Under the pieces are notes generated by a model. It worked only from the letters and a program-made list of their open reading frames with translations. It did not search any database and was not told the origin of the DNA. Of a DNA stretch of 64,000 nt, positions 41,296 through 45,901 are shown in pieces. The translations under genes and the position numbers were made by a program. The stretch comes from Ferroplasma acidarmanus Fer1 (GTDB lineage Archaea; Thermoplasmatota; Thermoplasmata; Thermoplasmatales; Thermoplasmataceae), in assembly GCF_000152265.2 (NCBI RefSeq), contig NC_021592.1, forward strand, positions 124,001 through 188,000, given 5' to 3'. The first letter of the stretch is position 1; every line of letters starts with the position of its first letter.

Positions 41296-42789
41296 CTAAT
41301 ACTTTGCCAGTTTTTCAAATTCCATAGTATCCTTTATCAGCACTGCAATATCCGATTTGCATTCTATTTTAGTTGTTACTATCTTCCCCTTAATGGCATA
41401 ATTGATATTGATATCTTTTAGGTAATCAATAGTAGATATTAATGAAGCTGTTTTGCTATTCCTATGTATTTCATTATAAATTAATGCTAAAAACAAGTAT
41501 GCCATCAATGAGAAGAACATATGCACCTTTATCTTCTGTGGTGTCCAGTGGTATAGTGGAAATGCAATGCCCTTTGCATTTATTGTCCTGAAGCAGTGCT
41601 CTACCCTTGCCCTCTTTTTATACAATTCTACTATGCTTTCTGCATCCTTATCTATAATATTTGTGAATATTGCATTCTTTCCCATCATTGATATACGGTA
41701 TTCCATCCTTTCACCGTCAATCTCCAGTGATGGCAATAGTATTGTTTCATTCAGGTGCTCTGATTCCAGGTATATTCTTGCTTTCTCCATGGAATCTGAA
41801 TCACCTGAATCAATAATCTTCTTTGCTTTCACCATTACCTTTGCCAGATGCTTCATAAACTTGTTTTTCTTTCTTGTTTCCAGTGATTTTGAATGGTACA
41901 GTATAATTCTATGGTCTTTCCCGTAAACATTCCTTATTAATTCAATATACGAATCTTCCTTTACATTGATCTCCATTATGCTATGGTTGTCTGATTGTTT
42001 CAATGCACCTATGTACCTTCTGTTAGAAATCATATCAATATTATCCTTTGAATTGTAGCCCCTGTCAAATATAAGCGTTGAATCTTCAGGTATATTCTTT
42101 ACAATATTTTCAAATGTTCTGGAATCATGAATATTGCCAGGGTAGGCTTCTCCATACAGTGGTATGTAGTCGTATGTTGAAGCTATATAGTATGATACCT
42201 GATTTAAATCATACCTGTGCTTCTTATTATGCCCCTTCTTGGCTATGCTGTTCTCCTCCATGAATGTGTACATATTGGATGCATCAAAGAATATATCTCC
42301 TGTATTATACCCCATTTCCATAATTCTATCCCTTACCCTATCCATTATATTCTTTATATTCTTATCAGCAAACCTGTCCATTATATTCCAGAAATCCTGT
42401 GAGGATGCTTCAGGGAATATTATGGATGCATAATTCCTTTTCATCCATTTCCCTATACTATTCTTGGAGCATGGTTCTGATAGCCTGTTCATAATAAATA
42501 ACAGCAAATAATCTCCAGGGGACATTCCATTTCCCTTATGGCCCATTGCATTGTTAACAATATCCCTTAAGCCCAGTGCCTTATCCATATAAAGTGAAGC
42601 AAGTGCAGAACCTGCACTGTAGCTTTTCAGCATAATATTTTCCATGCTGTCCTCAAGCATCTTTGCAAGGTTCTCAGCTGTGCCAACGCTGATCTCCTTA
42701 ACTATTGTAGGCACGCCATTTATCCTTTTCTTCCACCTCAGCACCAGATACCTGTTCTTCCCCGATCGTTTGAATGTGTAATATACCAT
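41296..42789 (-). CDS. IS1634-type transposase
   Basis: 497 residues from ATG at 42789 (a TTG one codon before it is ignored). The N-terminal Y-Y-x-F-K-R-S-G-K-N-R-Y-L-V-L opening and the whole IS4-superfamily core are visible: first Asp in DIFFDASNMY, second in TLIFDRGYN, and Glu in YKKRARVEHCFRTIN. The core is followed by HMFFSLMAYLFLALIY and a short C-terminal domain. The gene is complete and likely functional. Its TATA-like TATTTATTAA (42811-42820, minus strand) is centred 26 bp upstream. Confidence 0.9.
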   Translation of the reverse strand: MVYYTFKRSGKNRYLVLRWKKRINGVPTIVKEISVGTAENLAKMLEDSMENIMLKSYSAGSALASLYMDKALGLRDIVNNAMGHKGNGMSPGDYLLLFIMNRLSEPCSKNSIGKWMKRNYASIIFPEASSQDFWNIMDRFADKNIKNIMDRVRDRIMEMGYNTGDIFFDASNMYTFMEENSIAKKGHNKKHRYDLNQVSYYIASTYDYIPLYGEAYPGNIHDSRTFENIVKNIPEDSTLIFDRGYNSKDNIDMISNRRYIGALKQSDNHSIMEINVKEDSYIELIRNVYGKDHRIILYHSKSLETRKKNKFMKHLAKVMVKAKKIIDSGDSDSMEKARIYLESEHLNETILLPSLEIDGERMEYRISMMGKNAIFTNIIDKDAESIVELYKKRARVEHCFRTINAKGIAFPLYHWTPQKIKVHMFFSLMAYLFLALIYNEIHRNSKTASLISTIDYLKDININYAIKGKIVTTKIECKSDIAVLIKDTMEFEKLAKY

Positions 42790-42793
42790 CAAT

Positions 42794-43227: not shown

Positions 43228-43410
43228 TTAAATATTGTACGGTGAATTAATCGTTTCTACGCAGCTTTTTAGTGTTTCTTTTGCCATTTCTATCCAGGTT
43301 TCACGATCAATTGGCGAGGGATCTATAGCTTTAGCCATAGGAGGAATTGCAACGTGTCTATATACTATTCTCTTATTATTTTTATAATTAAAACCACCTG
43401 ACTCGCATGG
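43228..43410 (-). pseudogene. C-terminal fragment of an unidentified protein
   Basis: A minus-strand frame ending TAA at 43228-43230 encodes GGFNYKNNKRIVYRHVAIPP, then MAKAIDPSPIDRETWIEMAKE and TLKSCVETINSPYNI. This has the look of a genuine protein terminus (regular helix, acidic and basic balance) but is only about 57 codons long and has no start: at 43405-43410 it runs into GC-rich, non-protein-like DNA. I take it as the surviving 3' end of a gene interrupted by that segment. The family is not recognised; given the neighbours, a carbohydrate enzyme is conceivable but unproven. Confidence 0.45.
43381..43390 (+). promoter_or_regulatory. TATA-like element before the GC-rich segment
   Basis: TTTATAATTA lies about 26 bp upstream of where the GC-rich segment starts (about 43411) on the plus strand, a fitting position for a promoter of a transcript covering that segment. 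AT-rich DNA makes chance occurrence likely. Confidence 0.3.
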
Positions 43411-43705
43411 ATTGTGTCTAAGGCTGTCTGAGGGGCTCCGGTGGCAACACCGAGGGATGTATAAATAAGCTTCTGCCCGACTGGCGAGGGCAATGCCATC
43501 ATTTGAAAGGACTGGTTGGGGTTGTTCCCTGAGGTCAACTTCCCTATTGTGCTCCGTTCCCGCAAGGAGCTGTCAGTGGAGTGCTTGCCAGCAAATCTTT
43601 CCTGAGCCTTTTACCTGTGCTCTACCGGAGCATAGAGGCGTTCCCAACCTTGTTACACAAGTCCTTCCGGAACAAGGATGTACTCAGGATTTACTGGCAT
43701 AACTT
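43411..43705 (+). ncRNA. GC-rich structured segment; candidate non-coding RNA or TnpB-element 3' end
   Basis: By eye about half G+C against roughly 36 percent around it, with sharp edges and no long protein-like frame. Nested complementary strands are present: ATGCCA 43493-43498 with 43695-43700, AAGGACT 43507-43513 with 43660-43666, and GGTTGGG 43514-43520 with 43643-43649. Local hairpins include CGGTG-GCAA-CACCG (43439-43452), TGCCC/GGGCA (43474-43492), GCTCC/GGAGC (43551-43570) and TGCTC/GAGCA (43618-43632). GC-rich structured stretches in AT-rich thermophiles are often RNA genes. I do not see the conserved boxes of RNase P or SRP RNA. The alternative is the 3' end plus guide-RNA region of an IS200/IS605 TnpB element on the minus strand. 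Strand is inferred from a TATA-like element at 43381-43390. Confidence 0.35.
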
Positions 43706-43735
43706 GCTTGAAAGTAGTATTATGCCTGAATATCG

Positions 43736-44377
43736 CTATCCATCCATTCCCTCGTGAATCCATGCATTGGCCAAAATCATATTGGTAAGTGGATTTGGAT
43801 GTACCCCGTCGTTGGATAATCGTTTCGCGCCAGTTCCACTCATGTATGCATCTAACCATGCCTGTGTGTGTACAAATCGAGTTTTATACCGGATGCTTAT
43901 TGATTCCATTATGTGCGCATAATACAGTGTTTCCTGACGCATTACATTGTCTAAAGATGCTATGATATAAAAAGGTGACATTAATATAATACCTTTTACG
44001 TGATGAATAGTTCTTTTTATCAATGTGTTTATGGTTGTTGCATATTCAACAGGAGATATTAAGGAAAGGTGATCGGATGGCTGATCAAAATGCCTCCATA
44101 CATCATTAATTCCAATCATGATAGACACCCAGTCCGGATTTTGACTTATAACATCGGAATTCCATCTATATTTTAAGTCTCGAATAGTGTCGCCCGCTAT
44201 TCCCATATTTACAATTTTCTGGTCAATATCAGGATATAAATAACCTAAAAGGGCATCTATATAAGAAACATATCCATTGCCTAAGCCCCAGGGATATCTG
44301 CCAACAGGGCGTTCACGATTGGAGTCTGTCACAGAATCACCTATCATCAGTATAGTATCCTTATTATTTAATATCAT
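43736..44377 (-). CDS. SGNH/GDSL-family hydrolase (acetylesterase-like)
   Basis: 213 residues. Block I is MIGDSVTDSNRERP (Ser nucleophile), block II NMGIAGDTIRDLKYRW (Gly), block III MIGINDVWR (Asn) and block V NDGVHPN (Asp and His). The whole frame follows the bacterial acyl-hydrolase pattern G-N-G-Y-V and D-x-Q-A that acts on acetylated sugars. It is intracellular (no signal peptide) and could remove acetyl groups from imported oligosaccharides, in line with the GH1 gene 84 bp upstream. The last residues (HEGMDG) look slightly shortened compared with relatives that end in -GFEW, perhaps because GC-rich DNA of another origin begins just downstream. Confidence 0.88.
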   Translation of the reverse strand: MILNNKDTILMIGDSVTDSNRERPVGRYPWGLGNGYVSYIDALLGYLYPDIDQKIVNMGIAGDTIRDLKYRWNSDVISQNPDWVSIMIGINDVWRHFDQPSDHLSLISPVEYATTINTLIKRTIHHVKGIILMSPFYIIASLDNVMRQETLYYAHIMESISIRYKTRFVHTQAWLDAYMSGTGAKRLSNDGVHPNPLTNMILANAWIHEGMDG

Positions 44378-44461
44378 TTAAAGCGTTACTTCCTTTTTAT
44401 TATACCCTTTGATTTCCCATTATTGATTTCTCACTTCCGTAATCATAAGACTCATTAAGTG

Positions 44462-45901
44462 TTATATTTTATATCTGGATATCCATTTAAGGTTATCAGG
44501 AACACCATGGCTATCTATTATTTCCTTATAAATTAGTGCACTCGGTCTCATATACCTTTCCTTTGTTTCCATATTTACCTTAAATAAGCCAAATTTTTTT
44601 GAGAAACCAGATGCCCATTCATAATTGTCTGTCAATGACCAGTGATAGTAACCTTCTACTATTGCACCGTCGCTTATTGCACGTTCTATATTATAAAAAT
44701 GTGATAAAATGTAATTAGACCTGTATCTATCCATATCATCAGCTAATCCATTTTCAGTAATAGTTATAGGTATTTTATATCTATTATGATAATCCATTAT
44801 TATATTATATATGCCTTCAGGATATATTTCCCAACCGGTATCACTCACTGACCTATTATCCAGAGAATTTTTGATATCCCCACAGTAATGGCCATAACCT
44901 TTTAATATTTCCCAACCTGAGTCATTTCTTTTTATAACATCCCTGCTATAATAATTCAGTCCAAGCCAGTCAACTTTGTTTTTCATATCACTACGTGTTT
45001 TTATTGGTTTTCCATCGTTTGTTAATTCGTGGTACCATGACAAATCACCATTAATTATGGAATCAAAAAAGGAATACCTGTTAAAAAATTTAGCCTTATC
45101 AACTATATCATTATCGCCATCTATAGATTGGATATCACCATTTGCAAATATTATGCCCACAGGTTTTTGTGAATATAGCTTTATGGCGTCGTATGCCCTG
45201 GCATGTGCCTCTGCAAATTTCTTTTTTCTTGCGGATATGCCATTATACGAACTGTCAACACTGCAACCCTGATACACCATGTTTGGCTCATTCATTGTTG
45301 ACCAGCGATCTACTATATTATCAAATTTGCTGGCAATGTATGCGCAATACTTTGTAAATTCTATAATTATATGATTGTTAAAACAACCACCTATTGCTCT
45401 CTGCTTATCATTATCTGAAAATTTGGATGGATCATTCAGCCATTTTGGTATTGTCCAGTGATAAAGATTTATAATTAAAAATTTATTCCTTGATTTAAAA
45501 TCCTTGAATATATCCATATACCGTTTTATTGCATCTTTATTTGAAATTTCATCCAATTTCCTTATTGTTTCATCATTTATACTTATATTTATTATATCGT
45601 CATTGTCATATTTTATATCAACTTCTATATTTTCTGTTGATTCCGTAAAGATTCTTGACCATTCGATTCCAAGTCTTGCAGCGTTTATATTTAATTTGTC
45701 TGCATTATCATGGTCCTGTTTATATAAATCCCAATAGGCTACACCGTTTTGAGGCAGGTCACCGGACACATAATGTTTTTCAATGTTTCTTTTATCGTTT
45801 GACCATATAAACCAGTCAGAGTTATTATCCGTACCAGACAAACCCATTTCAGATTGAAATCCACACTCTGAAAAACCAAACTTAAAATTATTTGGAACCA
45901 T
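44462..45901 (-). CDS. GH1 beta-glycosidase (LacS-like)
   Basis: 479 residues, the length of Sulfolobus-type beta-glycosidases. It starts NFKFGFSECGFQSEMG; NAARLGIEWSRIF, the acid/base glutamate in STMNEPN, LGLNYYSRD, the nucleophile glutamate in ITITENGLADD, and HWSLTDNYEWASGFSKKFGLF are the family landmarks. It hydrolyses beta-glucosides or beta-galactosides in the cytoplasm. The TrmB regulator gene and Opp/Dpp-type importer lie directly upstream on the same strand, so the natural substrate is probably an imported beta-linked oligosaccharide such as cellobiose. A TATA-like ATATTTTAATAA about 25 bp upstream suggests an additional own promoter. Confidence 0.93.
   Translation of the reverse strand: MVPNNFKFGFSECGFQSEMGLSGTDNNSDWFIWSNDKRNIEKHYVSGDLPQNGVAYWDLYKQDHDNADKLNINAARLGIEWSRIFTESTENIEVDIKYDNDDIINISINDETIRKLDEISNKDAIKRYMDIFKDFKSRNKFLIINLYHWTIPKWLNDPSKFSDNDKQRAIGGCFNNHIIIEFTKYCAYIASKFDNIVDRWSTMNEPNMVYQGCSVDSSYNGISARKKKFAEAHARAYDAIKLYSQKPVGIIFANGDIQSIDGDNDIVDKAKFFNRYSFFDSIINGDLSWYHELTNDGKPIKTRSDMKNKVDWLGLNYYSRDVIKRNDSGWEILKGYGHYCGDIKNSLDNRSVSDTGWEIYPEGIYNIIMDYHNRYKIPITITENGLADDMDRYRSNYILSHFYNIERAISDGAIVEGYYHWSLTDNYEWASGFSKKFGLFKVNMETKERYMRPSALIYKEIIDSHGVPDNLKWISRYKI

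Follow-up and report, generated by a model that had tools for sequence, protein, structure and literature searches.

Two broken, opposite-facing fragments of transposase-less IS200/IS605-type elements as the probable make-up of a GC-rich block in Ferroplasma acidarmanus Fer1

Palindrome-associated transposable elements (PATEs) of Haloquadratum walsbyi are too short to encode a transposase, have no inverted terminal repeats and carry near-terminal palindromes that are related to IS605 transposons (PMC3119063). In one Haloquadratum PATE a portion of the sequence coding for the TnpB C-terminus is included (PMC3119063), and a similar PATE-like element has been reported in Halanaerobium (PMC7290912). 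The guide RNA of TnpB, the omega-RNA, lies directly upstream of the right-end hairpin (PMC8612924; PMC10278001), and in typical TnpBs a 3' stem-loop is the sole conserved structure of the scaffold (PMC10278001).

The window analyzed here, a stretch of 64,000 nucleotides of the Ferroplasma acidarmanus Fer1 genome (NC_021592.1, positions 124,001 to 188,000; all window coordinates below count from its first letter), contains a GC-rich block for which a first-pass annotation had proposed an undescribed structured archaeal RNA or, alternatively, the guide-RNA region of a TnpB-type element. The GC island itself was borne out, with 0.50-0.56 G+C in 100-bp windows compared to 0.19-0.41 in the 600 bp leftward, whereas neither the sharp edges nor the folding described for it held. 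Instead of starting at 43411 and ending at 43705, the GC-rich block is limited by homology to 43393 and 43739, and the repeat homology spans 43305-43598 (piece A) and 43606-43739 (piece B). G+C content is 0.544 in the interior of piece A and 0.448 in piece B, compared to 0.353 in the whole window and 0.254 in the 500 bp leftward. Two different repeats are involved, one matching the left half (43300-43575), the other the right half (43606-43739). Within the window's own genome (1,935,211 bp), partial copies of either half lie at separate sites, and among 60 relatives a good match was found in another genus. In none of the other genomes searched (60 relatives; 117 genomes of the order) was the A-B arrangement found. 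Oriented by their tnpB-like ends, A lies on the plus strand and B on the minus strand. It is very probable that the block consists of two unrelated, broken and opposite-facing fragments of small transposase-less elements of the IS200/IS605 type, i.e., PATE-type elements, and the high GC content is a property of elements A and B and not of a host RNA gene. As the A piece of the window has no right end and the B piece has no ends at all, their identity as elements rests on homology to other copies.

The block directly follows the 3' end of an intact GDSL-hydrolase gene. Truncation of this gene by the insertion was considered and rejected, and the gene looks intact because its orthologs in two further genomes of the genus are homologous right up to the end of the ORF. 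The genes adjoining the block on this side encode a GDSL-like hydrolase and a glycosyl hydrolase of family 1 (43736-45901, minus strand), and beyond them follow ORFs resembling an oligopeptide ABC transporter. A gene for a 498-aa transposase with a DDE_Tnp_1 domain also adjoins the block (41296-42792, minus strand); it has a second, 99% identical occurrence, covered over 486 bp, at G000:C1:1619680-1620167.

Element A is about 325 bp long and ORF-less. With the copy of genome G024 as query, 117 genomes of the order were searched, and further full-length copies were found in G100, G082, G111 and G092, with partial copies elsewhere; full copies are thus present in four other genera and in G092, a genome of the same species. 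The five full copies align with sharp limits, and their flanking sequences are unrelated. Each has a left end made up of AGTCGCAAGGAAGC, a hairpin and AATTGCGA, before which T(T)CAC is found in most copies, then a variable linker, an interior of about 205 nt and a right end consisting of TGGAAGTGCAAGC, a hairpin with GCTTTAG in its loop region and GTGGTTGAC or a variant thereof. Mean identity among the five full copies is 0.91 in the left-end core, 0.48 in the linker and 0.83 in the interior. Subterminal hairpins at both ends of A are strongly supported by compensatory changes: 88% of the alignment cells pair, nine of the 17 pairs are changed on both sides, which none of 500 shuffles matched, and the signal vanishes once the partner is slid by 1-3 columns.

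Ends matching those of IS200/IS605 elements, by which the first-pass annotation had proposed to recognize a TnpB-type origin, were found in the intact copies. Two complete TnpB elements of G024, L072 and L073 (the TnpB of L073 was confirmed by Pfam), have the same ends as A, spaced about 1.2 kb apart, and in the same genome the regions upstream of tnpA genes resemble the A left end. An exact-pattern search of GTDB genome contigs gave three contigs, all of them from Thermoplasmata, and a plasmid collection and viral contigs gave no match. The conserved interior of about 205 nt is exemplified by L018:2512-2715, with matching interiors in L043, L044, L045 and L046. At L048:1419-1546 (G017), the A interior continues into a tnpB-like tail (CCTATTGTAGCGGGT...GTTGCAAGC plus hairpin), and this copy may represent a transitional form linking the A interior to a tnpB 3' end. 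In G100 the A copy has a tRNA gene (L043:2987-3059, minus strand, Rfam match) at a distance of about 1.2 kb.

In the window, A has retained the left end and the interior, and the right end that comes next in other copies is missing. Over 278 bp it is 85% identical to the G092 copy. All of its parts are on the plus strand. TTCAC at 43300-43304, just outside the left end and present as T(T)CAC in most copies, is a putative cleavage or target motif, a role taken over from IS200/IS605 biology. The left end (43305-43358), delimited by the alignment of copies from five genomes, contains a subterminal hairpin at 43322-43342 that is decayed, as the local fold shows. It is followed by the linker (43359-43392; mean pairwise identity of 0.48 in the full copies), which holds most of the TATA-like stretch mentioned below, and by the GC-rich interior (43393-43598), for which the alignments indicate an insertion of about 10 nt near 43576-43585.

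Element B is likewise ORF-less, has a length of about 400 bp and is known from four full or nearly full copies, L015 and L017 in the window's genome and L110 and L111 in G092, with an internal deletion in L017. Every copy starts with a left-end hairpin and finishes with GTAGGAACCCCACATGCTTTAGCAGTGGGAGTATGTC or a close variant. Inside the B copies lies a tnpB 3' segment of about 100 bp, the translation of which shows 59-63% identity with the TnpB C-terminus across 32-35 aa. This segment and the right end are common to the B copies and the complete tnpA-tnpB element of the window's genome, and with the tnpA-tnpB relatives in G092 the B copies have the left end in common as well. Of all this the window has kept an internal fragment of 134 bp (43606-43739, minus strand), which is 86% identical to L015 and 89% identical to L017 and, in the alignment with the four full copies, comprises neither the left end nor the tnpB-like part nor the right end. 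A natural empty site is available for B: the G092 copy L111:836-1244 is absent from the window's genome, where the site is uninterrupted at G000:C1:199485-200503. PATEs make no target duplication; here the junction of the empty site carries a short repeat, which could be older than the insertion or have arisen with it, and the exact boundary of the insertion is uncertain. The presence and absence of one B copy between two genomes of the same species supports the idea that B is a mobile element.

The block can therefore best be understood as a composite relic, in which A on the plus strand has kept its left end and interior and lost its right end, and B on the minus strand has kept an internal piece only. 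By analogy with established IS200/IS605 biology, an intact copy would be excised and inserted in single-stranded form by a Y1 TnpA that acts in trans and reads the end hairpins; the window's genome contains one intact Y1 TnpA gene. The window copies themselves should be able neither to move nor to make a guide RNA, as the ends needed for this are lost. The guide-RNA (omega-RNA) region of TnpB is the most likely origin of the part that lies beside the right-end hairpin in intact copies. Such an origin is well supported for B, which carries the tnpB 3' end, and weakly for A. What speaks against this explanation is that, as far as its sequence tells, the A interior does not clearly derive from tnpB.

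The guide-RNA region of a TnpB-type element, the alternative named by the first-pass annotation, was correct in kind, as the block does consist of IS200/IS605-type fragments, but a working guide region is not present here, because in A the right end, and with it the boundary between scaffold and guide, is gone, and B has neither end. The order of right-end hairpin and flanking guide that is characteristic of an omega-RNA is thus missing from the window copy; the intact A copies do have the right end. An intact A might be a mobile carrier of a stand-alone guide RNA, in which the interior together with the right-end hairpin forms the omega-RNA scaffold, the flanking DNA provides the guide and TnpB is made elsewhere. 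We regard this as possible though rather unlikely, and it extends the composite-relic explanation and does not contradict it. The interior is located immediately 5' of the right-end hairpin, which is the position of the omega-RNA (PMC8612924; PMC10278001), and the final ~33 nt of the A copies correspond to the tnpB 3' end in complete elements. Moreover, the interior is 0.83 identical between genera compared to 0.48 for the linker, and no frame stays open across the five full copies. Since there is no common open frame and frame-breaking indels occur, the interior is not coding, and its divergence relative to that of the linker suggests selection on a non-coding sequence. However, mosaic copies transferred between genera could also contribute to such uneven divergence. 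Covariation of the pairs in the interior does not go beyond that of shuffles, with most pairs invariant, and folding of the full A copies does not surpass that of shuffles. The consensus fold breaks down when it is computed from 14 A copies, some of them very diverged; this is at least partly caused by the poor alignment and is therefore not used as evidence. Tested against shuffles, the similarity of the A interior to tnpB 3' ends is only marginal. A trans-acting omega-RNA scaffold in intact A copies is hence a plausible candidate. That intact A copies represent a whole Thermoplasmata family of guide-RNA-only transposons, with the interior selected as scaffold, TnpB and TnpA borrowed and the window copy being a broken member, is a tentative proposal that we consider improbable on balance.

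The block could also be the remnant of a protein-coding gene, which is very unlikely. The full B copies do contain a recognizable tnpB C-terminus, and the last ~33 nt of the A copies agree with 3' coding sequence of tnpB, but it is exactly these tnpB-like parts of A and B that are missing from the window. In addition, the window ORFs concerned gave no Pfam family, the A copies contain stops and frame-breaking indels, and no intact gene covering the A interior was found in the 117 genomes of the order or, by exact pattern, in GTDB contigs.

The structured RNA proposed at first would have to fold by nested long-range pairs. On the plus strand the folding energy is -95.6 compared to -95.2 +/- 5.9 for dinucleotide shuffles (z -0.07), and on the minus strand -87.5 compared to -86.8 +/- 5.1 (z -0.13). 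Folding no better than shuffled sequence on either strand is the outcome that the first-pass annotation itself had named as speaking against such an RNA. The complementary strands of its three nested long-range pairs do exist, but all three link a strand of A to a strand of B, and since A and B occur independently of each other in the full copies that were examined, these pairs cannot represent a conserved fold. Perfect Watson-Crick matches that span 7 bp or more and are more than 100 nt apart are somewhat more frequent than expected (4 compared to 1.09 +/- 0.96 in 500 dinucleotide shuffles, of which 1% reach 4), whereas the total nested pairing is ordinary (48 compared to 45.1 +/- 5.3, reached by 32% of the shuffles). 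The local hairpin with a GCAA tetraloop is present as CGGTG-GCAA-CACCG at 43439-43452 on the plus strand, and in the alignment of A copies its close relatives have GTAA, GTGA or GCAA loops, all of the GNRA type; as the stem is almost invariant, it yields no evidence from covariation. The TATA-like element (approximately 43379-43395) falls mostly inside the fast-diverging linker of A, is conserved only within the genus and is missing from the copies in other genera. No Rfam family was found in the window at gathering thresholds and no relevant match at E<=10, where the block region gave only two matches, to other families and at chance level; the scan of the full copies gave no relevant match either, and a search for tRNA and tmRNA genes returned none. 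An undescribed host ncRNA is thus favored by a GC island within an AT-rich region, by four long perfect complementary matches where about one is expected and by a GNRA-capped hairpin, but with shuffles that fold equally well, no relevant Rfam match, long-range partners split between two repeats, a truncated copy and an A-B arrangement found in no other genome searched, it is exceedingly unlikely.

The case of the candidate new archaeal RNA can be closed, the locus being a transposon relic. It shows that a GC island with seemingly nested pairs in an AT-rich archaeal genome can turn out to be a stack of IS200/IS605 derivatives. The locus adds the new members A and B to the known PATE-type elements, and the conserved core of their relatives may be the interesting point. 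It raises the question why a transposase-less element keeps its non-coding core across genera while the linker drifts to near-random. If the core were an omega-RNA used in trans, the element would carry a guide scaffold and ends only.

Compared to TnpB omega-RNAs or reRNAs and to the haloarchaeal sotRNAs (RF02656, RF02657), the A interior is likewise located just upstream of a right-end hairpin, and a TnpB scaffold of which the 3' stem-loop alone is conserved (PMC10278001) resembles the case of A. In contrast to these RNAs, the A interior has no Rfam match, with no covariance-model match to either sotRNA family in the window or in the full copies, element A contains no tnpB gene, and the copy in the window lacks the right end. 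L072 and L073 correspond to A in the left end (81-84% identity over 64 bp) and in the right end (79-91% over 33-52 bp), but they encode a TnpB of 368 aa, and their tnpB 3' region is not clearly related to the A interior. The complete tnpA-tnpB element L112 (~1527.2-1528.6 kb, same genome) has the tnpB 3' end and the right end of the B copies, and the left end of the B copies matches that of its relatives in G092; unlike L112, the B copies contain neither of the two genes, and the B piece of the window contains none of the shared parts. Both A and B fit PATEs. With ~325 bp for A and ~400 bp for B they have the size of transposase-less elements, and the full copies encode no TnpA or TnpB except for the C-terminal remnant in B. 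Near-terminal palindromes are present at both ends of full A copies, where they covary, and of full B copies, whereas in the window only the left one remains in A and neither in B. Their ends are related to IS605, those of A to L072/L073 and to the tnpA-associated left ends of G024 and those of B to tnpA-tnpB elements. Known PATEs such as HqIRS71 and the PATE-like element of Halanaerobium differ in that their host lineage is not Thermoplasmata, in that the A interior is conserved between genera over ~205 nt and in that the window copies are truncated relics; like A and B, they are transposase-less by size and carry IS605-type subterminal palindromes, and some of them include a tnpB 3' part.
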